From Spirochaetae bacterium HGW-Spirochaetae-1 (GTDB taxonomy: Bacteria > Spirochaetota > UBA4802 > UBA5550): DNA of 64,000 nt. The stretch is from positions 250,392 to 314,391 of the forward strand of contig PGXY01000002.1 of NCBI GenBank assembly GCA_002839375.1, read 5' to 3'. Below the pieces are notes generated by a model. It had not been told where the DNA came from, made no database searches, and was given only the letters and a program-made list of their open reading frames with translations. The first letter of the stretch is position 1. Each line of letters begins with the position of its first letter. This document shows, piece after piece, positions 43,712-63,183 of this stretch. The position numbers and the translations under genes are program-made.

Positions 43712-44494
43712 ATGAAGCATCTCATCATAACCGCAATCAGCATCTTACTCTCAGCCGCCATTCCGGCGAACAGCAATAAAGGCCCTTTTCTCCGGGACTA
43801 TATGCGCGACAACAACATCACGGGCACCGTGGTGATCGAATCGTTGCAGACCAATAAAAAATTTGTATACGATGAAAAGAGGGCCGCGGTGAGGTTTACG
43901 CCGGCTTCGACTTTCAAGATTGTCAATACGCTTATCGCCCTGCAGGAAAAGGCTGTGAATGATGAAAATGAAATCATTAAATGGGACGGTCGCGTTTCGG
44001 AATTTGCCGACTGGAACAGGGATCAAAGTATTAAAAGCGCCTTTGGTGTGAGCTGCGTGTGGTTTTACCAGGAGCTGGCCAGGAGGGTAGGCAATGGAGC
44101 CTATATGTCGTATCTGAAAAGGATGAACTATGGTAATCAGAAAACAGGAGAGCATATCGATACATTCTGGCTTGACGGTAGTCTGCAGATTTCTGCCCTT
44201 GAACAGATTTCGGTTTTGAAAAATATCTATAATGAGAAATACGGCTTCGATAAAAAAAATTATGAAATATTGAAAGAGGTTATGATCGTTGACCGGACCG
44301 GCGACTATATCGTACGGGCCAAGACCGGCACGGCAATGCGTGTGAAGCCCGTGACAGGCTGGTACGTGGGCTACATTGAAACGAAAGGCGATGTCTGGTT
44401 TTTCGCCTGCAATATCGATATGGAAAGGCCGGAACAGTCGAAGCTGAGAAAGGAAACGGTGTACAGGGCATTGAGGGAAGCAGGGTTACTTTGA
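43712..44494 (+). CDS. Class D (OXA-like) serine beta-lactamase
   Basis: 260 residues with a signal peptide (about 1-20), so periplasmic. All class D motifs are present: S66-T-F-K69 (PASTFKIVN), S114-C-V116 (SxV), Y140-G-N142 and K204-T-G206, plus W217 in WYVGY. K69 is the residue that is normally carboxylated. Class D enzymes hydrolyse penicillins and sometimes other beta-lactams. Sequence alone cannot give its spectrum. The SxV motif carries Cys in the middle position. It is followed, with 53 bases between, by a cupin gene. Confidence 0.93.
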   Translation: MKHLIITAISILLSAAIPANSNKGPFLRDYMRDNNITGTVVIESLQTNKKFVYDEKRAAVRFTPASTFKIVNTLIALQEKAVNDENEIIKWDGRVSEFADWNRDQSIKSAFGVSCVWFYQELARRVGNGAYMSYLKRMNYGNQKTGEHIDTFWLDGSLQISALEQISVLKNIYNEKYGFDKKNYEILKEVMIVDRTGDYIVRAKTGTAMRVKPVTGWYVGYIETKGDVWFFACNIDMERPEQSKLRKETVYRALREAGLL

Positions 44495-44966: not shown

Positions 44967-45308
44967 TCAGCAGGCGATGATTTCCTTGATGTTGAACTCC
45001 CTTCCGCACAATAAATCCCACTCACTTTTCCCGCAGTCGGGACACTTCCTGTTGTTCGCAATGAGATTATAAACCGCGTTGCACTTTTTGCAGATGGCAT
45101 TGCCCGGCAAAATCTCAATCTTTAATTTTGTTTCCTGCAATAATGTACCGTCCACGGCAACCGGGTAGCATGACTCGATATACCGCGGGATTATCGATGA
45201 GAGTTCGCCGATCTGGAGAACCAGGGTGTCGATTCTGGTAACACCGTTTTTCCTTGCGAAATCTTCAACGGTTTTGACGATCTCAATCACGATACCCAAT
45301 TCATGCAA
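44967..45308 (-). CDS. hypA: Hydrogenase/urease nickel-incorporation protein HypA
   Basis: 113 residues from TTG 45308, fixed because the family begins M-H-E and the histidine at position 2 binds nickel; AGAGGT lies 8 bases upstream. HypA helps load nickel into NiFe hydrogenase with HypB. The zinc-binding cysteine pairs CKKC and CPDC are intact. It is separated from the flavoprotein gene upstream by 75 bases that contain a hairpin. No hydrogenase structural genes are in the window. Confidence 0.92.
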   Translation of the reverse strand: MHELGIVIEIVKTVEDFARKNGVTRIDTLVLQIGELSSIIPRYIESCYPVAVDGTLLQETKLKIEILPGNAICKKCNAVYNLIANNRKCPDCGKSEWDLLCGREFNIKEIIAC

Positions 45309-45337
45309 AGGAATTTACCTCTTCTGTTAATGTGTAA

Positions 45338-45365
45338 GGGCAGGGGGAACAGAAATCCCCTGCCC
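45338..45365 (-). terminator. Hairpin between the Fe-S flavoprotein gene and hypA
   Basis: GGGCAGGGG (45338-45346) pairs with CCCCTGCCC (45357-45365). On the minus strand it is followed by TTACACATT, a weak U tail, so partial termination that lowers hypA expression is possible. Confidence 0.5.
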
Positions 45366-45383
45366 ATTATTTCATTCTCGGAA

Positions 45384-48095
45384 TCAATTCCTCAAGTCCG
45401 TCTTTTCGCCTGAAAATGCCGATCTCAGAAATTTAACGGGCTTCATGAGAGCGATTCTTACCTTGCGCTTTAACGCATATTTAATGACAGCAGGCTTCAG
45501 GTCCTTGAGTTCCACGCTTGCGCTGTCGTATTTCCTGACCAGCTTGATCGCGTCGAACTTGCACTTGGTAACGCAAACCCCGCAGCCCACACAGAGAAAT
45601 TCATCGGCCACCGTAGCGCCGCAGCTGAGGCAGCGTTCCGTTTCCATTTTGACCTGTTCTTCCGTGAAGGTTACGCGTAAATCCTTAAAAGTTTCCTTTG
45701 ATACATTGCCGTCGACATGATTTGCTTTTTGCCGCGGAAGACGATCGTAACCCTCCAGATCAAGGTTCTCTTTGTCCAGGGAGCGATAATCTCTCATGGT
45801 GCGGCCGAGAAGCAGGCTCTGTCCCGGCTGCACAAAGCGATGGATAGAGATCGCTCCTTCCTTACCCATGGCGATGGCGTCAATGGCGAACATGGGCCCG
45901 GTCAATGCGTCGCCGCCGGCGAAAACGTCGGGCTCGCCTGTCTGATACGTGGCAGGATCGGCTTTAATTGTCTTGTTGGGATTAAGTTCAATGTTGCTGC
46001 CGGCGATGAGGTTGCCCCAATCCATTGCCTGACCAACGGAGATCAGGACATTGTTTGCCTTTAAAACCTTTGTTTCATTGTCGTCGAAGACGGGATTGAA
46101 CTTTCCCTTTTCATCGAAGACGGATGTACATTTTCTGAATTCAACACCGGTAACACGTCCGTTTTCCGCAAGGATTCGTTTGGGGCCCCAGGAATTGTTG
46201 ATGATGATGCCTTCAGACACCGCTTCTTCAATTTCTTCTTCCAGGGCCGGCATTTCTTTCCTGTTCTCCAGGCAGTACATCTCTACCGGTGATGCGCCGA
46301 CGCGCAGGGCGGTCCGGGCCACATCAATGGCCACGTTTCCGCCGCCGATTACCACGGTTGGCCCTTCCAGTTTTACCCCTTCATTGAGGCTGACATTGCG
46401 AAGGAACTCAACACCGGTGATGACACCCCGGGCATCTTCACCTTCGATGCCGAGCTTACGGCCGGCCTGGGCGCCGATGGCGAGATAAAACGCTTCAAAG
46501 CCCTGGCCGCGCAGGTCCTTGAGAATGACATCTTTACCAACTTCGATACCTGTTTTGAACGCTACACCCAGTTCTTTCAGGATATCAATTTCAGCGTTCA
46601 CTACATCTTTCTCCAGTCTGAAGGAGGGGATGCCCATCGTGAGCATGCCGCCCAGTGCTTTTTGCTTTTCAAAAACCGTAACCCTGTACCCGTCAACGGC
46701 CAGGTAGTAGGCGCAGGAAAGTCCAGCGGGCCCGGCGCCTATAACGGCAATATTTTTTCCGTACTGATGTTTTATCCTTGGAACAAAGCGGGTGGCCGCG
46801 TTCAAATCCTGTTCAGCAATGAATTTTTTGATATCATCGATGGCGATGGGATCATCCACGTCGCCCCTGGTACAGGCCGATTCGCAGTATCTCGGGCAGA
46901 CGCGTCCGCATACTGCAGGGAAGGGATTCTCGTACTTGATGAGTTCAAGGGCTTCGGTATATTTTCCCTGTGATGCCAGCTTGATATATCCCTGGATGCC
47001 GATATGGGCGGGACATTCCGCTTTGCAGGGACTGGTGCCTGAATCGACAACAACTTTTCTGTTGGTGCGATATTCGTAATTCCATCTGTCAGGGCCCCAT
47101 TCCGTATCGTAGGGAAGGTCTTTTCTTGATCGATCAGGAATCGGCGTTTTTGTGCAGAGCTTCTGACCGAGCCGGAGGGCGTTCATCGGGCAATTCTCGA
47201 CGCATTCTCCACAGGCCACGCATTTGTCTTGATCCACGTGTGAAACGTAGTTCGAACGCACCATGTCGGGGTTTGTCCACATCTCGGCGACTCTCATGGA
47301 GAAGCAACCGCAACCGCAGCAATTGCATATGGCGTGCGTTTTTCCGGGACCGTCGGTGTTCGGTATTGAATGCATCAGACCGTTCGCCTCGGCTTTTTTA
47401 ATGATTTCGAAAGCCTCTTCGCGGGTGATCTCCCGGCCCCGGCCCGTGCGGATATAGTATTCGGCGGCATGGCCCATCTGGATGCACATATCCTCCTTCA
47501 GGTGGCCGCATCCCTCTCCCATGATTTCCCTTGAAGTGCGGCAGGAGCAATCGGAAACCGAGAAAAGGTTGTTTTCGTTGAGATAGGTGGAAACTTCTTC
47601 GTAGGATGCTGTTCTGCTTTCACCGTTTAGGGATTGTTCAATGGGGATGACACGCATAGGCCCCAGACCCACGGGGAATATTCCTGCAGTCGCCGGTCCC
47701 CGTCTTTTGCCGTAGGCATCGAAGGCTTCGGCTATCTGCGGATACTTTTTAACGTTTTCTTTGTTGTTGACCATCATCTCCATGTGGCCCGGAACCCAGA
47801 GGTCCTGCCAGTATTTATCGACGCCGTCGATTTTATTGACAAAAGCCACACCGGCAACGGCCAGTTCCCATAAGAGCTTTTCCGTTTCCTCTACGGATTT
47901 GCCGCACAGGGGAGCAACCTCCGCGGCGCTCATGGGTTTGCGCAATTTCAGGCAGAGTCCCACTTCCGCCATTGCTTCCGTAACAACGGGCTCCAGAATT
48001 TTATATTCCGGATAGTCCGGTTTTATCTCGTCTTTTGTTCCGCGTTTTGTCCTGCTGATCTTATTGGCAAGATCCATTACCTTTTCATTTACCAT
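45384..48095 (-). CDS. Large iron-sulfur FAD/NAD(P)H oxidoreductase (GltD-like)
   Basis: 903 residues, cytoplasmic. The first ~280 residues include a winged-helix-like start and two unusual cysteine clusters (DCSCRTSREIMGEGCGH at about 182-198 and CNCCGCGC at about 257-264). A ferredoxin motif follows (CVACGECVENCP, about 292-303), then a glutamate-synthase-small-subunit-like domain (CKAECPAHIGIQ, VCGRVCPRYCESAC), FAD binding (AVIGAGPAGLSCAYYLA, near 450) and NAD(P) binding (VVIGGGNVAIDVARTA). A final CVGCGVCVTKCK-type cluster is at the C terminus. It probably moves electrons between NAD(P)H and ferredoxin-like carriers. It is flanked by hypB and hypA on one strand, so a hydrogenase-linked role is inferred. 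Confidence 0.85.
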   Translation of the reverse strand: MVNEKVMDLANKISRTKRGTKDEIKPDYPEYKILEPVVTEAMAEVGLCLKLRKPMSAAEVAPLCGKSVEETEKLLWELAVAGVAFVNKIDGVDKYWQDLWVPGHMEMMVNNKENVKKYPQIAEAFDAYGKRRGPATAGIFPVGLGPMRVIPIEQSLNGESRTASYEEVSTYLNENNLFSVSDCSCRTSREIMGEGCGHLKEDMCIQMGHAAEYYIRTGRGREITREEAFEIIKKAEANGLMHSIPNTDGPGKTHAICNCCGCGCFSMRVAEMWTNPDMVRSNYVSHVDQDKCVACGECVENCPMNALRLGQKLCTKTPIPDRSRKDLPYDTEWGPDRWNYEYRTNRKVVVDSGTSPCKAECPAHIGIQGYIKLASQGKYTEALELIKYENPFPAVCGRVCPRYCESACTRGDVDDPIAIDDIKKFIAEQDLNAATRFVPRIKHQYGKNIAVIGAGPAGLSCAYYLAVDGYRVTVFEKQKALGGMLTMGIPSFRLEKDVVNAEIDILKELGVAFKTGIEVGKDVILKDLRGQGFEAFYLAIGAQAGRKLGIEGEDARGVITGVEFLRNVSLNEGVKLEGPTVVIGGGNVAIDVARTALRVGASPVEMYCLENRKEMPALEEEIEEAVSEGIIINNSWGPKRILAENGRVTGVEFRKCTSVFDEKGKFNPVFDDNETKVLKANNVLISVGQAMDWGNLIAGSNIELNPNKTIKADPATYQTGEPDVFAGGDALTGPMFAIDAIAMGKEGAISIHRFVQPGQSLLLGRTMRDYRSLDKENLDLEGYDRLPRQKANHVDGNVSKETFKDLRVTFTEEQVKMETERCLSCGATVADEFLCVGCGVCVTKCKFDAIKLVRKYDSASVELKDLKPAVIKYALKRKVRIALMKPVKFLRSAFSGEKTDLRN

Positions 48096-48129
48096 GCATA
48101 GTACCCCGTTAATAAATTTTCAGTATGTT

Positions 48130-48801
48130 TTATTTTTCTTTCCAGTTTTTGACTTCGGTGCGAATCCAGTCGGCCCATTCATCAATTCCTTTTCCCGTTT
48201 TGGCCGAGATGGGGATAACCCTGATGTCGGGGTTTAATTTTTTTGCGCGCTCTTTGACCGCATCCGGATCAAAATCAAAATAATCTATTGTATCTATCTT
48301 GTTGATCAATAAGACATCAACAATGGAAAACATGAGAGGATATTTCAGCGGTTTGTCATCACCCTCGGGAACGCTCAGGATCATCGCGTTTTTCGATGCG
48401 CCGGTATCGAATTCCGCCGGGCATACCAGGTTACCGACATTTTCCAGGATGACAAGATCAAGGCCTTCTGTTCCGAGCCCCGAGAGACCCTGCCTGGTCA
48501 TATCGGCATCGAGATGACACATGCCGCCGGTATGGAGCTGGATTACTTTTGTGCCCGTCTGCGCGACAGTATGGGCATCGACATCGGAATCGATATCGGC
48601 TTCAAGAATTCCAATGCTCATTTCATCTTTGAGCGCCTCAATTGTTCGTATAACAGTGGTTGTTTTTCCGGAACCTGGAGACGACATTAAATTCAGTAAA
48701 AAGGTCTTGTTTTCTCTCAATTCATTCCTGAGCAAATCAGCTTGCCGGTCATTGTCTTCAAAAACACTTTGTTTGATTTCCAGTATTTTATATGCATCCA
48801 T
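48130..48801 (-). CDS. hypB: Hydrogenase nickel-incorporation GTPase HypB
   Basis: 223 residues from ATG 48801, chosen for the GGAGGT site 8-9 bases upstream. HypB uses GTP to drive nickel delivery with HypA. The P-loop SSPGSGKTT, the metal-binding MCHLDA (Cys-His) and the guanine-specificity NKIDTID are present. The histidine-rich N-terminal nickel store and the CxxCGC motif of some HypB proteins are both absent. It is 34 bases before the flavoprotein gene and leads the group hypB-flavoprotein-hypA. Confidence 0.93.
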   Translation of the reverse strand: MDAYKILEIKQSVFEDNDRQADLLRNELRENKTFLLNLMSSPGSGKTTTVIRTIEALKDEMSIGILEADIDSDVDAHTVAQTGTKVIQLHTGGMCHLDADMTRQGLSGLGTEGLDLVILENVGNLVCPAEFDTGASKNAMILSVPEGDDKPLKYPLMFSIVDVLLINKIDTIDYFDFDPDAVKERAKKLNPDIRVIPISAKTGKGIDEWADWIRTEVKNWKEK

Positions 48802-49029
48802 ATCGTTTTTACCTCCATCGCCGGAACAAGCCATATATATAAAGAACAAAAAATTATGAGAAATGTAAATAGGGGAAAACTGTATTGTCTATAGGGGGAA
48901 TTCACTTATAACAAAAGGGAGTAGTGTGTATTTTATATTGCATAAAAAAGAAGGGAAACTTCTGAACACCATAGCTGCATGGCTCAGTCGATGCAGATTG
49001 TCGAGAATCACGGATAAATTTTTGGCTGC

Positions 49030-54465: not shown

Positions 54466-54572
54466 ATATAGTTCCCGGATATCTTCATCATGGCTATTCA
54501 GTTCATTATATTCAAAAATGAATGAAAGTCAATACTTTATGTGTAAGGGCGGCTCTTTTTCGTGAAAATGAA

Positions 54573-54593
54573 TACTTGACAAATACACAAGTA
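54573..54593. promoter_or_regulatory. Inverted repeat over a TTGACA element before the binding-protein gene
   Basis: TACTTG (54573-54578), nine bases, then CAAGTA (54588-54593). The repeat overlaps a perfect TTGACA (54576-54581); the matching -10 is weak. The site is about 60-80 bases before the binding-protein start and could bind a metal- or substrate-sensing repressor. Confidence 0.4.
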
Positions 54594-54650
54594 CATGTCA
54601 TTAGACTTCAGATAAAAAGAATGAAAATGATTCGGGATGGATATGCGGAT

Positions 54651-55748
54651 ATGAGATTCAGGAATTTAATTATGCTGTTTCTTGCGGGGGGGATGATATT
54701 GCATCCCGTTTTCGGCGGACATGACAAAGGGACTCTGCGGGCCATGGAAAATACCAGGACGATTATCGATTGTGCCAACCGAAAAGTCCAGGTTCCCCGC
54801 CGGGTGAAACGCATAGCCTGCCTCTATGCCTTCAGCGGCCACGTCGTGACCATGCTGGGCAGGGGAACCGATATCGTTGCCGTTGTAGGCGGGCTCAAGC
54901 GTGACGTTATGCTGACATATCTCTGTCCATCCATTGCCGACGCCGTTGTTCCGCGATACAATGGAGCACTGAACGTGGAGGAACTGTTGAAGTCCCGCCC
55001 CGACGTGGTTTTTCTAAAGGAGGATATGGCCGGAAAAGAATCGGAGACGTCAGGTCTTGACCGGTTCCACATACCCTGGGTGGTCATATCCTTCAACTCA
55101 ATGGCGGAGCAGCAGAAAGCCGTTGCCATAATCGGAGAGGTCATCGGAGAGACGCGTGCCGCTGCAGATTATAATTCCTACTACAGGGAAACGATCGACC
55201 GCGTCGGTACTATCGTGAAAAGCATACCAGGGGACCGGAAACTCTCTCTTTACCACTCGACCCTGGAACCGCTGAAAACCGACGGACCGCGTTCCCTGGC
55301 CGCTGAATGGACAAGAACAGCAGGAGTTATCAATGTATCTGCGGGAGCTGAACTGATAACGTCCGGTGAGGATTACTATGCAACCATTGAGCAGGTTCTC
55401 CTGTGGAATCCCCGGGTAATTCTGGTCAATGAAGAAGGCATTGATGACTATATGAAGAATAACTCCCTCTGGTCCCATATGGATGCGGTAAAGCAGGGGC
55501 GGATATATAAAATGCCCACGGGCATATCGCGGTGGGGGCATCCCGGGTCGGTGGAAACGCCACTGGCCCTTCTCTGGACGGTAAAAACACTGTATCCTGA
55601 ATATGCCGTAAGTATCAATCTCAGGACCGAGACGAAAAGATTTTATAATACCTTTTTCAATTATGAACTCTCCGACACAATGACCGACAGCATCCTCAGC
55701 GGAAAAGGGATGAGAACGGCAAAAAGTAAAAGGAATAAGAAGAAATGA
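54651..55748 (+). CDS. Periplasmic substrate-binding protein of a FecB/BtuF-type ABC importer
   Basis: 365 residues from ATG 54651; longer in-frame starts exist (for example 54522, 54621), but this one begins the signal peptide RFRNLIMLFLAGGMILHPVFG. The mature part has the class III binding-protein layout: first lobe (VQVPRRVKRIACLYAFSGHVV), a long linker helix (SYYRETIDRVGTIVKSI) and second lobe (VLLWNPRVILVNEEG). It would deliver a metal-chelate, corrinoid or similar ligand to the FecCD-type permease at 62-63 kb. Its last four bases (ATGA) overlap the start of the next gene. Confidence 0.88.
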   Translation: MRFRNLIMLFLAGGMILHPVFGGHDKGTLRAMENTRTIIDCANRKVQVPRRVKRIACLYAFSGHVVTMLGRGTDIVAVVGGLKRDVMLTYLCPSIADAVVPRYNGALNVEELLKSRPDVVFLKEDMAGKESETSGLDRFHIPWVVISFNSMAEQQKAVAIIGEVIGETRAAADYNSYYRETIDRVGTIVKSIPGDRKLSLYHSTLEPLKTDGPRSLAAEWTRTAGVINVSAGAELITSGEDYYATIEQVLLWNPRVILVNEEGIDDYMKNNSLWSHMDAVKQGRIYKMPTGISRWGHPGSVETPLALLWTVKTLYPEYAVSINLRTETKRFYNTFFNYELSDTMTDSILSGKGMRTAKSKRNKKK

Positions 55749-56491
55749 AAATTTACATGGCAATAGACGACACCGATATCCTGGGAAGCCGGGGCACTGG
55801 ACATCTTGCTGAAGACATCAGAAGAGATATTGTCTCGATATTTTCCGGGACATGCGAGAATATATCGCGCCACCAGCTTTTCGTATGCGACGATATCCCC
55901 TATACATCGCATAACAGTTCCATGTGTTTTGTCGCCGATATCGGTGATGATGCATTTGAGGGAATAGTGAAACATACGATTAATATGCTGGAGACATGCA
56001 GCGCCGACGGATCTGATCCTGGTTTCTGCATCTTTAACCTTGAAAAACTTGATGAAGAAGGCGCCGGAAGACTCATGGATTTCGGTCATCGTGCCAAGCG
56101 GACCGTTCTCACCAAGGAAGAGGCTTACGGCCTGGCCGCCGAACTGGGCATTCATCTTTCAGAGCACGGAGGAACCGGACAGGGAATAATCGGCGCCCTG
56201 GCCGGAACAGGCCTCAGGCTCGAAGGCAATGACGGCCGGTTCCGGGGCTGGATATTTGAAAATGCCGACACGGAGATGACTGTCCGGGAATGCCTGGAGC
56301 AGCTGCCGGTTCGGGAAGTTGTCGACCTGGCCGGAGCGGTTATTAATGGATCGGATTTAGTGCGGCTGAACGGCAAGGTAAAGACCGTGCCCAGGAGAGG
56401 TCGCCAGGTTCTGCTGGTGAAAAAAAAGAAAGACAACGGGCAATCGTTCTGGGTGAATCTTAACCGGGATGAAATCAAGGGCCTTGACTAA
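55745..56491 (+). CDS. TiaS-like IDDTD-motif protein coupled to a binding protein
   Basis: 248 residues starting MKIYMAIDDTD (IDDTD at 7-11). That motif and the glycine-rich stretch HGGTGQGIIGALAGTG (141-156) resemble the N-terminal catalytic part of TiaS, the archaeal tRNA-Ile2 agmatinylcytidine synthetase. The zinc ribbon and OB fold of TiaS (about 420 residues) are missing. It overlaps the binding-protein gene by four bases (ATGA), so it is translationally coupled to a transport gene, which would be odd for a tRNA enzyme. It may be an ATP-using enzyme that modifies or releases the imported ligand. Function unknown. Confidence 0.78.
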   Translation: MKIYMAIDDTDILGSRGTGHLAEDIRRDIVSIFSGTCENISRHQLFVCDDIPYTSHNSSMCFVADIGDDAFEGIVKHTINMLETCSADGSDPGFCIFNLEKLDEEGAGRLMDFGHRAKRTVLTKEEAYGLAAELGIHLSEHGGTGQGIIGALAGTGLRLEGNDGRFRGWIFENADTEMTVRECLEQLPVREVVDLAGAVINGSDLVRLNGKVKTVPRRGRQVLLVKKKKDNGQSFWVNLNRDEIKGLD

Positions 56492-56497
56492 GGGTGA

Positions 56498-58882
56498 TTA
56501 AAACTTTGCTGAACATCCTCCATAAAACATGCGTCCCGGACCCGGGATAAAGGGGTCGGCCTCGTAGTCGTCGAGCACGTTTTTACACATGACATAAACC
56601 TCGTAATAAATGAGAAAAGACTGGCTCAGCCTGATATTGAGCATGACCGGGTCATGCAGCCGTACCGCCTCGAAGTATTCCGTTGAAAAGGGTGTTTGAA
56701 CCGGTCCGGGCTCGGGCCGTTCCTTCATGCAGTACACATACTGATTCACGGTGCTGTAGCCCCAGATGTTCAGGCCCGTGCCCCCTTTGAACTTCAACCG
56801 CAGATCCGCCGAAATCTGGTGTGATGGTGTAAATTCTATTATCTCACCTTTGTTGATTTTCTCCTCTTCAGAATTATCCCTGTTCCGCGTATAAAGGTAT
56901 GTGTAGGAGCAGACCAGGGTCATATCCATAATATCGAAAATTCCTTCCCTGGTGTAGGTTATAATGGATTCCAGTCCCTGCGAATCGACCCTGCCGATAT
57001 TCACGGGCGGATCAATGCCGCCGGAAATTTTTTCGATGCGGTCCTTAACCACGCTGACAAAATAGTCGGCGCGCAGGGAAAGGGCGCTATCGAAGAAAAA
57101 GAGTTCGAAGCCAGTGTTGCCGTTGTATGATCGTTCAGGTTTCAGCCGGTTGTCCCGCTTGTCATCGACGATTTTTGAATATTCACTGAGATCGGGAAAG
57201 CGTGTTTTTATGGAACCGGCGGCACGAAGGATAAGCCGTTCTTTCATCGGTGTGAATATAAGACCCGCCACGGGATTGATGGAGTCCTTGGTTCCCAGAA
57301 GTTTCGAGTCAGCAGCAACGATGTAGGCATCTTCAAACTGGTACAGGGCCTCGCGGTTCTTGAAACTGTGCAGTATTTGCATATCATACGAGACGCCCAG
57401 GGAAATGTTCAGCCGGTCCTTATAGTTTATTTCATCTTCGACGGCTATTGTAAAATAAGATACATCGAGCCGCTGAACCGGGTAGGGATCAGTGCCGAAG
57501 AGCGTGGCCGCGATAGCCGGGGAAACTGTGGCAGAAATGGCCTGTTCGTTTTCCTGGTACAGGGAATAACGCCCCAGCAGGGCAAAGTTAAGGGTGTTCC
57601 ATTGGGCTATTTTCCATGAGGGGTACAGGTTTGCGCCTGCAGTGAGATATTCTTTTATGGTGTAAAAGGGCTCAAGGACCGTGTCGGCCAGGACCGTGTC
57701 GCCGGGCCAGGTATGGTCCGTGGTGGCGTACTTTTCCTGTTTGGCCGTCATGTATGTGTAATAGGCGTTTCCCTTCAGTTTACATTTATTATAATCCAGT
57801 GTGAAATAAGGCGACACACGCACGTTGTGGATGGCCGGCCACACGAAGGAACGGTTTCGGAACGCAGCGCTTTTTATATCCCGCGGATCAGAAGAAACAT
57901 CAAAAATCGGATCTTCCCATTCTGTGTTTTTTGCTTTAAAATTACTGTATGCATTGAGCTGGTAGCTCGACGTATTGGCTGTTTTGAAATAGTATTCGGC
58001 AGTGATCCCTGCCTCGCTTTTATCATCGATGCGGTACCCTATCTTCGTGGCCAGGGAATACTGGGTGGAGTCATTGTGATTCCAGATACCCGTGTCGTTT
58101 ATATATCCCTCCACGGCAGGAAGATTGAGATCTTCGAAGTTTAAACCGTAAAGGTCGTAGCGCACCAGGCGGTCGAACCATTCACGGCGTTTTTTACTGT
58201 CCAATTTTCCCGATATTTCATATCCGCCCGAGTGCTGTACCGAGGCGTTGATCCAGTAGTAGAAATTCCCCAGAGGCGCTCCATGGGCCGCGTTAATGAG
58301 CCAGTTGTTATACTGGCCGTATTCGGCGCCGATCTCGTAATAGGGCGCGTCGGGTTTTTTCGTGATGATGTTGATGACACCCACGGCCCCGTAGGTTCCC
58401 AACAGGGCTGACGTGGCGCCCCTGTTCACGATGATTTGTTCAACATTATTCAGGGGAATATTCGAGATGTCTATGTCCGTGGAAAAAACGTCATTGATAG
58501 GGACCCCGTCGATGAGGATTGCCACCTTGTTCTGGTCAAAGCCGCGGAAGCGGGCCCGCACATAGCCCTTTTTATGCACGCCCACCTGGATACCCGGCAC
58601 AGACTTCAGGGAGTCGTCCAGGGTCTTATCGGAATGCTCTTCGATCTCCTCGGACGATATAACCGTGGTGTTGGTCGCTTTTTCTATCTGGGGGATGGCA
58701 CGCCCGTATATGACGATTTCACCGGCAGAATAGATGTGTTTTGCCTGGTTCTCTTTTTTTTCCTTTGGGGGTTCCTCCGGAGATTTCTTGTCGGTGTTTT
58801 CTCCATGAAGCGGAGAGAAGCAGAAGACGAGCGATAAAATGAGGACCGGGAAATGGACAAATAGATTAGTTTTGATTTTCAT
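56498..58882 (-). CDS. TonB-dependent outer-membrane receptor
   Basis: 794 residues. A signal peptide (about 1-27) is followed by a proline/lysine/glutamate-rich linker, a plug domain (about 55-175, SSEEIEEHSDKTLDDSLK, RFRGFDQNKVAILIDGVP) and a beta-barrel ending in a C-terminal phenylalanine (GGCSAKF), as BAM recognition requires. It imports a scarce large ligand using TonB energy. It faces the TiaS-like gene with 6 bases between stops and follows two lipoprotein genes on its own strand, so the lipoproteins probably help at the cell surface. Confidence 0.92.
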   Translation of the reverse strand: MKIKTNLFVHFPVLILSLVFCFSPLHGENTDKKSPEEPPKEKKENQAKHIYSAGEIVIYGRAIPQIEKATNTTVISSEEIEEHSDKTLDDSLKSVPGIQVGVHKKGYVRARFRGFDQNKVAILIDGVPINDVFSTDIDISNIPLNNVEQIIVNRGATSALLGTYGAVGVINIITKKPDAPYYEIGAEYGQYNNWLINAAHGAPLGNFYYWINASVQHSGGYEISGKLDSKKRREWFDRLVRYDLYGLNFEDLNLPAVEGYINDTGIWNHNDSTQYSLATKIGYRIDDKSEAGITAEYYFKTANTSSYQLNAYSNFKAKNTEWEDPIFDVSSDPRDIKSAAFRNRSFVWPAIHNVRVSPYFTLDYNKCKLKGNAYYTYMTAKQEKYATTDHTWPGDTVLADTVLEPFYTIKEYLTAGANLYPSWKIAQWNTLNFALLGRYSLYQENEQAISATVSPAIAATLFGTDPYPVQRLDVSYFTIAVEDEINYKDRLNISLGVSYDMQILHSFKNREALYQFEDAYIVAADSKLLGTKDSINPVAGLIFTPMKERLILRAAGSIKTRFPDLSEYSKIVDDKRDNRLKPERSYNGNTGFELFFFDSALSLRADYFVSVVKDRIEKISGGIDPPVNIGRVDSQGLESIITYTREGIFDIMDMTLVCSYTYLYTRNRDNSEEEKINKGEIIEFTPSHQISADLRLKFKGGTGLNIWGYSTVNQYVYCMKERPEPGPVQTPFSTEYFEAVRLHDPVMLNIRLSQSFLIYYEVYVMCKNVLDDYEADPFIPGPGRMFYGGCSAKF

Positions 58883-58914
58883 TCAAACTGGCCGAACGGG
58901 GCGATCTCCGAATT

Positions 58915-59706
58915 TTATGGGCAATAGTCCGCGACACTCTGTATTGGCAGCTTGTCCCCGGCTGACATGGTCGCGTCATCTGATCTTAAAAAAATCCTGC
59001 CCATGCCGCCGCTTCCTGTATTGGGTTTTCCCAGGACCCAGTTTGCATCTATAGTGAGGGTTATGCCCTGGGAGTCTTCATTGACTGTGATGGTGTCGGC
59101 AAGATCCGCGAAGGGAGTTCCAATGTCTTCATTGGCGGGATCATTGTCATAGATGGAATAGCGGTCGTAACGGTTCAAAAGGTTTTCTCTGTTGCCGCCG
59201 TAATTATAATCGTAAAAGGCCACCACATAATAGTCGCCATGTGCGATATTTTTAATGGTAATTGTACTGTTGTTCGATGAAGAAGTTCCCTTGTACAATA
59301 CCGGTTGGATGTTCGAGATATAATCACCATTTATATCAGCGGTAAGTGTCCCGAAAAGATACACAATGTTTATTTTATCGCCCAGGTCATCAGGTCCGAT
59401 CATTTCATCGGCCAGGTCCTCGAGCCAGGCATCATCCTCGCCGCATTGCCAGTCGCCGATATGGTCGGGGGGCACATCCCAGCCCACACCGCCGGTTTCG
59501 GCATACATCCAAGTGCCGTCTTTTGCTCCATAAGATCCGGTATTCGCCAGTGTTTGTCCTACGCGGGGATATCCCCACATATCAGAGTCGGTCTGTACCG
59601 TTATGGATATCCTGCCCTGGTAAGTATCTCCTGTGTTATCGCAGGAGATATATATTGCGCTTATAAGACTTAAAAATATGCACGGCAGTAGAATGAAGTT
59701 TTTCAT
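58915..59706 (-). CDS. Lipoprotein with one copy of a novel GDYYVxAFYDY domain
   Basis: 263 residues with a lipoprotein signal (ISC lipobox, lipidated C22). The mature part is beta-rich and acidic. Residues 157-188 (GDYYVVAFYDYNYGGNRENL and a following DRYSIYDND) closely match two stretches of the neighbouring lipoprotein; the unit then ends with LTIDANWVLGK. No known family is recognised. It lies 32 bases before the TonB receptor gene, so it may be a surface partner that captures the receptor's ligand. Confidence 0.8.
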   Translation of the reverse strand: MKNFILLPCIFLSLISAIYISCDNTGDTYQGRISITVQTDSDMWGYPRVGQTLANTGSYGAKDGTWMYAETGGVGWDVPPDHIGDWQCGEDDAWLEDLADEMIGPDDLGDKINIVYLFGTLTADINGDYISNIQPVLYKGTSSSNNSTITIKNIAHGDYYVVAFYDYNYGGNRENLLNRYDRYSIYDNDPANEDIGTPFADLADTITVNEDSQGITLTIDANWVLGKPNTGSGGMGRIFLRSDDATMSAGDKLPIQSVADYCP

Positions 59707-59802
59707 TATCAGAATTCTCTCATGGCATACTTAATCGCATATTACCATCTCCAGGGGCCTCCTCATTGACAGGGAGACCCCGGGTGGATGATGGAATATC
59801 CC

Positions 59803-60747
59803 TTAGGGAGTTACCGCCCATGTAGCTCCGTCACCGATAGTATAAATAATTGTATCATCTTCGCTGATAGTTGCAGTTGAAGCAACGGTTGAGCCAGTCG
59901 TCCCGTTTCTGATATCATGATAAATCTCATACAGGTCTCCTGTATTGATTATATTGCTACCACCTGTAGCAGAATTCAGCAGGCATACTACATAAAAATT
60001 ACCGGAGTAATTGGTGAGAATGTTGTCAATAACGATGGCCCCATTATTGCCGACAATATTTCCCTGGTAAAGAATATTATTTCTCGGTGAATTGGATTCA
60101 AGCTGACGGTAAACAAAAGCATAGGCATTGTATGCGCCGCTACTTGAATAATCAACATTTATTGTCATTGTGTTTCCGGTAAGTGATGTAATGAAAGTTT
60201 TTGAACTTCCCATTTCCCAGTTACGCTGAATGGTGAGGGATATGGCATTGGGACCTTCTTCTGTGATTGTCAGTTTCTGTGTGTCGGAGATCAGGGGGGA
60301 ACCGGTACCGCCGTCATAGAATGCATAGCGGTCAGCCTTGGTAATCAGGTTGGAATCATCTCCACCCGTACGGTAATCATAGAAGGCAATAACATAATAG
60401 TCACCCGGTTCTATGCCAGTAATATCCGTTGCCGTATTATTATCATTGTTTATGGCTGTTTCGCTGTAAAGATAATCATTCATATCGTTGGATACATCAC
60501 CATCGACTGTAGTGGGAAGTACATTTGGGTCCGGCATATCTGCGCAGGAATAGAGCTGCACATAATTGATTTTCTGACCGGCATATCCTGTTTGCGTATC
60601 ATAGTCATCACCATAATTGCCCTGATAATTAACCGTCACTGAAAGAGTTGCCCCTGGATCATCACTGCTGCCACCTTCACAGGCCGAAAAAGTAAAAAGT
60701 GCAGCGATCATTATCGCCGTCAGAATTAAAAGACTTCTTTTTTTCAT
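59803..60747 (-). CDS. Lipoprotein with two copies of the GDYYVxAFYDY domain
   Basis: 314 residues with lipobox FSAC (C23). Two related units occur: about 35-185 (core GDYYVIAFYDYRTGGDDSNL at 115-134, then DRYAFYDGG) and about 185-314 (core GNFYVVCLLNSATGGSNIIN at 249-268, then DLYEIYHD). Each ends with a tryptophan segment (QRNWEMG; GATWAVTP). The shared pattern with the next gene shows a duplicated extracellular-type beta domain. Function unknown; a ligand-binding or adhesion role at the outer membrane is inferred from the TonB context. Confidence 0.8.
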   Translation of the reverse strand: MKKRSLLILTAIMIAALFTFSACEGGSSDDPGATLSVTVNYQGNYGDDYDTQTGYAGQKINYVQLYSCADMPDPNVLPTTVDGDVSNDMNDYLYSETAINNDNNTATDITGIEPGDYYVIAFYDYRTGGDDSNLITKADRYAFYDGGTGSPLISDTQKLTITEEGPNAISLTIQRNWEMGSSKTFITSLTGNTMTINVDYSSSGAYNAYAFVYRQLESNSPRNNILYQGNIVGNNGAIVIDNILTNYSGNFYVVCLLNSATGGSNIINTGDLYEIYHDIRNGTTGSTVASTATISEDDTIIYTIGDGATWAVTP

Positions 60748-60917
60748 AAGTTCCTCGCTATTAGAATTAAATGTTCGTATTTTATATTTTTCAGGATTTA
60801 AAGTCGATGATTTTATGTCAATAGAATTAGCAGATAATTTGAAAACAATTTTTAGAAGAATGAAAAAGATTACAATATATTACAAAAAAATACAGCGATA
60901 ATACGCTATCAGGATAA
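60748..60917. other. AT-rich upstream region of the lipoprotein gene
   Basis: 170 bases of very AT-rich sequence with a TTGACA on the minus strand (60821-60816) but no well-spaced -10. The inverted-repeat element follows at 60918. Confidence 0.4.
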
Positions 60918-61109
60918 GGGAACCTCTATAAATCATTTTGAGGCAGAGCCATTTTAGCTCATCCTAAGCTGGCTTTGGGCAGCGCCTTTATTGAACATCC
61001 TGTTCAGGCACTGCATTCGAGTGTCCTGCTCAGCACATTCGATCATCGTGATCAGTAGATGTTCCCTTGTGGACATAAGCATTGGAAAAACCAAATTTCT
61101 GAGGTGCCC
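60918..61109 (-). mobile_element. Short inverted-repeat element, copy B (MITE-like)
   Basis: A 192-base element in the opposite orientation to copy A. Its ends are GGGAACCTCTATAAAT and (inverted) GGGCACCTCAGAAATT, matching copy A's ends, and the internal segment ATGCTTATGTCCACAAGGGAAC matches copy A at 20 of 22 positions. A further ~85 bases inside (from about 60940 to 61060) are absent from copy A, so A may be a deletion derivative. No transposase is encoded. Confidence 0.7.
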
Positions 61110-61181
61110 ATACATTAAAACAAGGCGATGTATAATGGTATTCGAGTCTGGCCGGGATTGTGCGCCTGCATCTTAAAAGTT

Positions 61182-62006
61182 TTATTCCCCGTCATTGTCA
61201 TCGGCAGCCGTGGCCAGGGCGATGATGGCACCGGCCTTTTTGCTTGCCTGCCGATAGGAGAGAATCTTTGATTCTACCCTGAATATTTTCATCATGGTCT
61301 CTTCGGTGAGGACGGAACGGGGACTGCCCAGGGCGAAGATTTTTTCTTCGTTCATGATTGCCATGGTCGTGGGAATGCCGTTATTCTCGAAATAGAAGGC
61401 ATGGTTCGGAGAATGGGTCGCGATGATAAAGGAAAGGCCCCGTACTCTCGCCAGGGAGGCGATTTTTTCCAGGAGCATTATCTCGTGCCGGAAGTCCAGG
61501 TGCGAAGCCGGCTCATCCATGATGATAATGGGCGACCGCTGGGCCAGGGCCCGCGCCAGCATAACCAGCTGTACCTCGCCGCCGCTCAGCTGTGTGTAAA
61601 GCCTGTCCTGCAGCGACTCGATTCCCACGTCCTTCAGGGCCTCCTGCGCGAGCAGGTGATCTTCACGGGACGGGCCGCTGAAAGGGGTGATATAGGCCGT
61701 TCTTCCCATGAGAACCACTTCGCGGACCAGGTAGGGGAAGGTGCGCTCGTGTATCTGCGGCACATAGGCCATGCGGCGCGCCAGTTCATGGGGACGGTAA
61801 TCCGCTATAGTTTTACCGTAGACGCGTATTTCACCCTCTTCGAGGGAATGAATTCCCAGGATGCAGTCGAGAAGGGTTGTCTTGCCGCAGCCATTGGGAC
61901 CGAAGAGTATGACTATTTCGCCTTCGCGCAGTTTCAGGTTGATGCCGGAAAAGATACTGCGGCTGCCGTATGAAAAATGTCCATTGCTTACTTCAAGGAC
62001 CGTCAT
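61182..62006 (-). CDS. ABC transporter ATPase of FecE/BtuD type
   Basis: 274 residues. Walker A GPNGCGKT (36-43), Q-loop VPQIHERTF, signature LSGGE (140-144) and Walker B IIIMDEP (D164, E165), then a His-switch region (ATHSPNHAF). It energises uptake of siderophore-, heme- or corrinoid-like ligands. The ATG is three bases after the permease stop. The binding protein for this pair is probably the one at 54.6 kb, about 6 kb away on the other strand. Confidence 0.92.
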   Translation of the reverse strand: MTVLEVSNGHFSYGSRSIFSGINLKLREGEIVILFGPNGCGKTTLLDCILGIHSLEEGEIRVYGKTIADYRPHELARRMAYVPQIHERTFPYLVREVVLMGRTAYITPFSGPSREDHLLAQEALKDVGIESLQDRLYTQLSGGEVQLVMLARALAQRSPIIIMDEPASHLDFRHEIMLLEKIASLARVRGLSFIIATHSPNHAFYFENNGIPTTMAIMNEEKIFALGSPRSVLTEETMMKIFRVESKILSYRQASKKAGAIIALATAADDNDGE

Positions 62007-62009
62007 GGT

Positions 62010-63038
62010 CTACCATCCTCCGCCGCGCGTTCTCCGCAGGAGATAGATGAAGAAGGGACCCCCGATCAGTGATGTCAATATTCCCAGGGGAATCTCGCCG
62101 CCCGATATATTGCGGGCGATATTGTCGATGATCACCATGAAGCAGGCACCCAGGGAAATACTCACGGGCATGAGAATACGGTTGTCGTTGCCGGCAATCA
62201 TTCTTCCCATGTGGGGGATCACCAGTCCAACCCATCCTATGATGCCGCTGATGCAGACTGCACCGGCCGTGGCGATAGTTGTGAAGACAATTATTGCTGC
62301 GCGGTTGAGGTTCACGTTGATTCCCAGGGTTTTGGCCTCCCGTTCCCCCATGGAGAGAACGTTGATGCGCCAGCGAATGAGCATGAGGCCCATGATACCG
62401 CCCAGCATGGGAATCGACGCCGCCAGTACGTCATGACCCTGAATCGAGGCCAGGCTCCCCATGAGCCAGAATACGATGGAGGGAAGATCTTCATAGGGGT
62501 CGGCCAGAAACTTGAGGAATGAAATCATGGCGGAAAATATCGATGATATTATCACTCCGCCCAGGACCAGCATGATGGTCGGTGCGCTGTTGTAAATTTT
62601 CCCCACCAGGTAGCTTAAGATGACGGCCAAGATTCCAAAGATAAAGGCGCAGATATATATGGCGGCCGTGCTTTTGAACATGATGATGGCCAGGGCTGCG
62701 CCGAAACCGGCCCCGGAACTGACGCCCAGCATACCGGAGCTCACCAGGGGATTGCGGAAGAGCCCCTGGAGTGCTGTGCCGCTGGCAGCCAGGCTTGCGC
62801 CTACCAGGGCGCCCAGGAAGGCCCGGGGGAGCCGTATCTCCCAGATGATGGAACTCTGGATGGAAGCTGCCACGTCGGGTCCACGGGAGATTATGCTCCA
62901 GATAAGGGGAAAAACTTCAGTGTAATGTATGGGGTATCTTCCCAGGAAAAGGGAGAGCACTATGCAGGCAAGAGGAGCTGCAACAAGAAGAACGGTGACA
63001 CCGGCCTTCTTGAGAATTTTCTTTTTCCTGGCGGTCAT
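62010..63038 (-). CDS. FecCD/BtuC-type ABC transporter permease
   Basis: 342 residues with about ten predicted membrane helices. Family hallmarks are RLPRAFLGALVGASLAASG (in part), PLVSSGMLGVSSGAGFGA, and the coupling helix region REAKTLGI, followed by GIIGWVGLVIPHMGR. It works as a homodimer with the ATPase downstream. It is not directly linked to a binding protein on its strand. Ligand specificity cannot be read from the permease. Confidence 0.92.
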   Translation of the reverse strand: MTARKKKILKKAGVTVLLVAAPLACIVLSLFLGRYPIHYTEVFPLIWSIISRGPDVAASIQSSIIWEIRLPRAFLGALVGASLAASGTALQGLFRNPLVSSGMLGVSSGAGFGAALAIIMFKSTAAIYICAFIFGILAVILSYLVGKIYNSAPTIMLVLGGVIISSIFSAMISFLKFLADPYEDLPSIVFWLMGSLASIQGHDVLAASIPMLGGIMGLMLIRWRINVLSMGEREAKTLGINVNLNRAAIIVFTTIATAGAVCISGIIGWVGLVIPHMGRMIAGNDNRILMPVSISLGACFMVIIDNIARNISGGEIPLGILTSLIGGPFFIYLLRRTRGGGW

Positions 63039-63131: not shown

Positions 63132-63183
63132 AACCCCGTCATTGCAGGAAGGGGTTCAAACCCTTCCTTACAATGACGGGGTT
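63132..63183. repeat. Long inverted repeat between the acyl-CoA synthetase and the permease gene
   Basis: AACCCCGTCATTG (63132-63144) and CAATGACGGGGTT (63171-63183) are perfect complements, and the inner parts (GGAAGGGGTT and AACCCTTCC) also pair. On the minus strand it is followed by TATTAC after GGGGTTT, so it may terminate the acyl-CoA synthetase gene, or be a REP-type repeat. Confidence 0.6.

Follow-up and report, generated by a model that had tools for sequence, protein, structure and literature searches.

Gene content of the locus

The locus described here occupies positions 54,573 to 63,038 of a 64,000-nucleotide stretch, hereafter the window, of contig PGXY01000002.1 of Spirochaetae bacterium HGW-Spirochaetae-1 (GCA_002839375.1), and it combines genes for an uptake system with a gene for a stand-alone TiaS-type kinase domain (TCKD) protein, which we call IDDTD. 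The genome comprises 5.2 Mb in 14 contigs and holds two PF00593 receptors above the cut-off and one IDDTD gene. On the plus strand, a gene for a periplasmic binding protein (BP) of the FecB/MolA class (54651..55748; Peripla_BP_2, 5.1e-19) lies in an open reading frame that opens at 54522, its start being placed at 54651, where the signal peptide probably begins as judged from the sequence. It overlaps by 4 bp the IDDTD gene (55745..56491), whose product was assigned by an AlphaFold model and a motif and has, after the kinase domain, a C-terminal part of about 80 residues (about 167-248) to which no fold was assigned. Convergent with this pair, the minus strand carries a TonB-dependent outer-membrane receptor (56498..58882), in which both the plug (PF07715, 8.2e-21) and the barrel (PF00593, 1.4e-21) were found, the lipoproteins LP1 (58915..59706) and LP2 (59803..60747), a MolC-like ABC ATPase (61182..62006; Pfam 5.9e-31) and a MolB-like FecCD permease (62010..63038; Pfam 3.5e-85). 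All of these open reading frames had been proposed in a preliminary description of the sequence; each was recovered at its place. Since a gap of 434 bp separates the lipoprotein/receptor block from the ATPase and permease genes, the two groups are perhaps not one transcript.

LP1 contains one copy of a domain that is common to both lipoproteins (35% identity over 133 amino acids, E 2.4e-18), and LP2 contains two diverged copies of it, its two halves being weakly alike (E 3.7e-5). LP1 matched no Pfam or NCBIfam family, and an AlphaFold prediction of LP2 with LP1 gave a mean predicted local distance difference test (pLDDT) score of 36.8, too low for any statement on the fold.

The IDDTD protein is modelled as a TiaS-type kinase domain

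The IDDTD protein gave hits to the models NF040849 (TiaS; 1.1e-9) and TIGR03280 (methanogenesis marker protein 11; 5.6e-8), both far under the curated cut-offs: the former scored 37 bits where 600 are required and covered residues 1-160 only, while the latter, whose C-terminal half aligns with residues 2-157, scored 32.2 bits against 255.8. An AlphaFold model from three sequences (pLDDT 79.5, falling under 50 in the stretch 12-16; predicted template modelling score 0.63) could be superimposed over residues 1-166 on the TiaS structure 3amt_A with a VIA Z of 19.4, a root-mean-square deviation of 2.1 and 153 aligned residues (Foldseek 5.5e-9), other folds reaching a Z of 8.2 at most. In an alignment of 36 of the 39 IDDTD sequences, from which those of loci L072, L087 and L089 were omitted as near-duplicate or broken, residues D8, D9, T10, D11 and T18 are present in all 35 rows that are ungapped there. 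Residues 1-166 are thus modelled as a TiaS kinase fold with the aspartate motif and Thr18.

In TiaS, the archaeal tRNA-Ile2 agmatidine synthetase, we take Thr18, which is autophosphorylated, and cytidine 34 to be the phosphorylation targets. The IDDTD protein shares with that enzyme the fold of the kinase domain and the IDDTD...Thr18 motif; however, it is bacterial, has 248 instead of about 420 amino acids and is linked to genes for molybdenum or tungsten (Mo/W), and given its length and low score we rejected the identification of IDDTD as TiaS itself. Frames of 470 amino acids around IDDTD in genomes G480, G627 and G578 were likewise dropped as fusions and read as upstream extensions in G+C-rich DNA, because IDDTD itself starts inside them. 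At L089 (9627-10377) the IDDTD gene is split over two overlapping frames, giving two matches in genome G592. Outside bacteria, a plasmid of the haloarchaeon Natribaculum luteum (L024, 9579-12708) carries an IDDTD gene, absent from the gene table of PLSDB, beside a binding protein, a FecCD-type permease (35% identical) and an ATPase.

The permease-ATPase-BP-IDDTD set recurs in two phyla

We found IDDTD in 9 of 148 relatives, the same nine being all carriers among 296 genomes of the phylum; L012 is a metagenome-assembled genome of the Desulfobacterales, and in its phylum 28 of 345 genomes carry IDDTD. A contig scan with a single protein returned two loci only, so its silence says little. In genome G009 of the same family (L016), the genes for the receptor, permease, ATPase, BP and IDDTD are contiguous and co-oriented, neighbouring genes overlapping or lying a few bases apart, and the receptor, 61% identical to that of the window, directly abuts the permease gene. 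The permease, ATPase, BP and IDDTD genes also adjoin in L013, L066, L068 and L069 (the last three with the help of tblastn), and the same order is seen in L067 at a contig end, where the permease is partial.

Permeases at least 60% identical to that of the window occur in seven genomes, two of them (G009 and that of the window itself) in the set of 59 relatives and the other five (G428, G297, G505, G456 and, partial, G628) among the 345 genomes, where 1e-80 was the limit for matches. Each of the seven has IDDTD nearby, within 4 kb in six cases and 7.3 kb off in the window; the next permeases are 50% (59 relatives) and 49% (345 genomes) identical. Thus the proposal of the preliminary description that one uptake system goes together with a TiaS-like enzyme is borne out for the ABC part, which recurs with IDDTD in seven loci of two phyla, and the receptor is contiguous with it in G009.

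The receptor and lipoproteins have a wider distribution. Relatives of the receptor were found in 29 of the 59 relatives, and since 21 of these have no IDDTD match, the receptor family is wider than the IDDTD system. Of the 39 IDDTD loci, 13 have a receptor of a query type within 10 kb. Lipoproteins of the LP type adjoin such receptors in the window, L020, L021, L141 (where the LP1 relative is 52% identical), L142, L144 and L145, and none was found beside the receptors in L143, L146, L147, L148 and L149. The lipoproteins, which had been counted as part of the one system, accompany this kind of TonB receptor within the phylum but not IDDTD in general, LP1 being near 2 and LPx near 3 of the 39 loci.

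The transporter proteins resemble the MolBC importer

The best match of the permease in the PDB was 2nq2_A, the Haemophilus influenzae HI1471 protein (MolB), with 240 bits, followed by HmuU with 172, whereas E. coli-type BtuC chains scored 128 bits or less. Similarly, the ATPase matched best 2nq2_C (HI1470, MolC) with 141 bits, the next structures scoring 116 and 112. The BP ranked 4ovk_A first (92 bits) and the MolA-type HI_1472 (3psa_A, 76 bits) second, or 150 and 126 bits with a six-sequence profile, so that HI_1472 is its best relative having an assigned ligand. We take HI1470-1472 to be MolCBA, a type II ABC importer of molybdate and tungstate, and this importer supplies the closest PDB relatives of the permease and ATPase. 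MolA itself is described as binding molybdate and tungstate (PMC4031551). Unlike MolBC-A, the window locus adds a TonB receptor, lipoproteins and a TCKD kinase, and its ligand is deduced.

In its composition of TonB receptor, class III binding protein, FecCD permease and ATPase, the locus resembles the BtuB/BtuCD-F and haem systems, but it differs from them in that the equivalog cut-offs are not reached and the neighbouring genes point to Mo/W. The receptor scored 71 and 62 bits on BtuB models with cut-offs of 600 and 836, and the permease 236 and 189 bits on BtuC models with cut-offs of 461 and 334. The best-scoring NCBIfam model of the receptor was TonB-siderophor, also below its cut-off, and no iron-specific equivalog model of NCBIfam was reached at cut-off by the proteins of the locus.

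IDDTD loci are enriched in Mo/W genes

We scored five markers within 10 kb of IDDTD: a permease of at least 55% identity, a two-domain energy-coupling factor (ECF) ATPase, TupA/WtpA, a Mo/W storage protein, and a regulator with HTH_17 and PBP_like domains. At least one was present at 28 of the 39 IDDTD loci and at none of 19 control stretches, which came from these genomes too (Fisher 6.5e-8). The controls were contig starts or round coordinates instead of random draws; a twentieth stretch did not exist, and seven of the 19 are shorter than 17 kb. The reference proteins for this count came from IDDTD loci themselves; leaving out the five loci that supplied them, the count was 23 of 34 (Fisher 8.4e-7). 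Singly, the storage protein was found near 10 loci, the two-domain ECF ATPase near 10, TupA/WtpA near 8, the regulator near 8 and the MolB-like permease near 6, with genes called by a longest-frame script that missed some in G+C-rich loci (L072).

The ECF type has no assigned ligand; for the other reference proteins, the Mo/W identity comes from searches of PDB, NCBIfam and Pfam. The storage protein, of the AA_kinase family, scored 217 bits to MoSto beta and 37 bits or less to uridylate kinases. WtpA of L077 is above the NCBIfam cut-off, and TupA of L020 and L075, with 244 and 247 bits, stays below its cut-off of 400; tungstate-type transporters are present in IDDTD loci L075, L077 and L081. 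The HTH plus PBP-like arrangement is that given for TaoR, a regulator of the tungsten aldehyde oxidoreductase (PMC11980592). Moreover, among the 59 relatives the storage protein occurs in five genomes, all of them among the nine with IDDTD (P 2.5e-5); a sixth genome, G053 (E 5.8e-11, 29%), was left out of this count.

The window's own genome has its storage gene on a different contig (L138), near ExbD and TonB genes and near a gene for a protein related to the molybdopterin-fold neighbour of IDDTD in L012. The genome also encodes TupABC, whose TupA is the sole PF13531 (ModA/WtpA) match at 1e-8, and it has seven AFOR_N matches, that is, homologues of AOR-type tungsten enzymes. IDDTD carriers are not alone in lacking ModA/WtpA, since G002 and G022 likewise have TupA alone, G007 has no PF13531 match, and all three are without IDDTD.

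Two further points of the preliminary description found no support. The nearby hypA and hypB genes had raised the idea of a nickel ligand; this linkage is not conserved, HypB lying within 10 kb of 2 of the 39 IDDTD loci (the window and L080) and HypA of one (L080), with HypA of the window just beyond 10 kb. A riboswitch had also been suggested as a check, and none was found at the gathering score in the window, while 21 relative loci gave one tRNA only.

A probable two-membrane Mo/W acquisition system and its alternatives

Taking together the gene content, its linkage, the modelled fold, the conserved catalytic motif and the association of IDDTD with Mo/W genes, we consider it probable, with appreciable doubt left, that the locus is a two-membrane Mo/W acquisition system in which TonB/FecCD uptake is coupled to IDDTD as an ATP-using, Mo/W-handling enzyme. 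In such a system the receptor would take a Mo or W species across the outer membrane, perhaps aided by LP1 and LP2 as surface lipoproteins. An organic chelate is a likelier form of this species than the bare oxyanion, given that large ligands are the norm for TonB receptors and that the genome is already equipped with TupABC. The BP would pass it to the MolBC-type permease and ATPase for entry into the cytoplasm, where IDDTD may process the ligand, with the chelator, IDDTD itself or a partner as conceivable targets of phosphorylation. The metal could then reach the storage protein as well as the pterin cofactor of the seven AOR-type homologues. That IDDTD is found with Tup, Wtp, ECF and FecCD systems alike suggests a role later than import, in the metal pathway and not tied to any one transporter.

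Several observations weigh against this proposal. The window and its 10-kb surroundings hold no Tup, Wtp, storage protein or TaoR-type gene, so that its link to Mo/W runs through relatives, and the loci of related genomes are not independent (L014/L015, L018/L020/L021, L072/L073). The top BP match, 4ovk_A, carries no named ligand, and resemblance to MolB is by itself not decisive for the ligand, because permeases 40-50% identical, to which no ligand is assigned, are present in genomes without IDDTD. Eleven of the 39 loci have none of the five markers; several of these are at contig ends or reflect misses of the gene caller, but L078 and L080 are neither. Among enzymes that use the metals, molybdenum bis-pyranopterin guanine dinucleotide oxidoreductases show no enrichment (near 3 of 39 IDDTD loci and 1 of 19 controls), AOR-type genes were found near 3 of 39 and 0 of 19, and by genome the co-occurrence with AOR is only marginal (9/9 carriers against 33/50 others, P 0.048). 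The riboswitch search gave no Mo/W riboswitch, and the ECF parts beside IDDTD match CbiQ and ABC_cobalt, with a tetrapyrrole-methylase domain in L021.

The last of these points favours uptake of a tetrapyrrole (a corrinoid, haem or nickel-tetrapyrrole) with IDDTD as a salvage kinase, for which the combination of TonB receptor and FecCD permease, the classic design of B12 and haem import, would also speak, as would the partial likeness of receptor and permease to BtuB and BtuC models, all under cut-off, and the weak likeness of IDDTD to methanogenesis marker protein 11. We nevertheless hold it to be quite unlikely, since the permease is far closer to MolB than to E. coli-type BtuC, since IDDTD also occurs in the three loci with a tungstate-type transporter, and since the storage proteins, TupA/WtpA and TaoR-type regulators near IDDTD would be left unexplained. 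That FecCD/TonB systems usually serve iron, and that the top model of the receptor is a siderophore one, could suggest an iron-siderophore system with IDDTD as a chance neighbour. The co-occurrence of the gene set, the 4-bp overlap of BP and IDDTD, the adjoining genes in L013, L016 and L066-L069 and the missing iron-specific equivalogs make this very improbable.

Alternatively, IDDTD may be a Mo/W-responsive regulatory kinase or sensor, autophosphorylating on Thr18, that tunes expression or transporter activity instead of processing a ligand. It does accompany varied transporter types and TaoR-type regulators and not one transporter, and its Thr18, the presumed autophosphorylation site of TiaS, is invariant; against this, Pfam and NCBIfam searches revealed no recognisable partner receiver or DNA-binding domain, and we regard the regulatory role as unlikely.

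Returning to the acquisition system, we tentatively suggest, as a possibility short of an even chance, that IDDTD is a new family of ATP-using, Mo/W-handling kinases, of which methanogenesis marker protein 11 is perhaps the archaeal branch, that with the window's receptor one of the first candidates for TonB-dependent passage of a Mo/W chelate across the outer membrane is at hand, and that these anaerobes draw on something like a metallophore for Mo/W, which is processed inside the cell. Passage of scarce Mo/W through the Gram-negative outer membrane is usually ascribed to diffusion through porins, a view that a TonB receptor for Mo/W would, if true, change. In searches that mostly did not cover the subscription literature, no paper was found that combines TonB-dependent, tungstate, molybdate and outer membrane receptor, and none among the matches listed links TiaS-like proteins to Mo/W; PMC7676072, which holds both 'tungsten uptake' and 'TonB-dependent', may mention a TonB link for tungsten. 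The association of IDDTD with the transport, storage and regulation of Mo/W, seen in at least two bacterial phyla, offers a testable function for an uncharacterised kinase family and also a clue to methanogenesis marker protein 11.

Additional gene clusters and features

The two-domain ECF ATPase lies beside IDDTD, often with TonB receptors, in L020 (6874-10075) and similarly in L021, L064, L070, L073, L076 and L083; several of these loci add CbiQ-type and ABC_cobalt-like (PF09819) membrane proteins, and the ECF systems are candidates for a new importer of the same ligand. A further recurring cassette joins a relative of the Oxidored_molyb-fold neighbour to CcsA-like and ResB-like proteins, mostly with a TonB receptor alongside (L012, 4073-9957; L021, 3210-9492; L141, 2-3135; L143, 1166-6366; L145, 4665-9946; L146, 6562-11812), and in L021 and L141 it includes a lipoprotein with a tetrapyrrole-methylase domain, which was shown for L021, the L141 protein being 70% identical. 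Other FecCD systems of the same phylum are clustered with radical SAM, FmdE-like or methyltransferase genes and TonB receptors (L143, 10297-16922; L147, 1930-6216; L149, 5847-11818; L137, 4970-11063; Pfam domains shown for L143 only).

Elsewhere in the window, HypA-like and HypB-like genes flank a large gene for an Fe-S/NAD(P)-type oxidoreductase at 44967-48849, as judged by eye, and the open reading frame at 43712-44494 resembles, again by eye, a class D beta-lactamase-like or penicillin-recognising protein. Between an AMP-binding gene and the permease gene, at about 63132-63183, we observed a near-perfect palindrome of about 52 bases, possibly a terminator or a repeat element.

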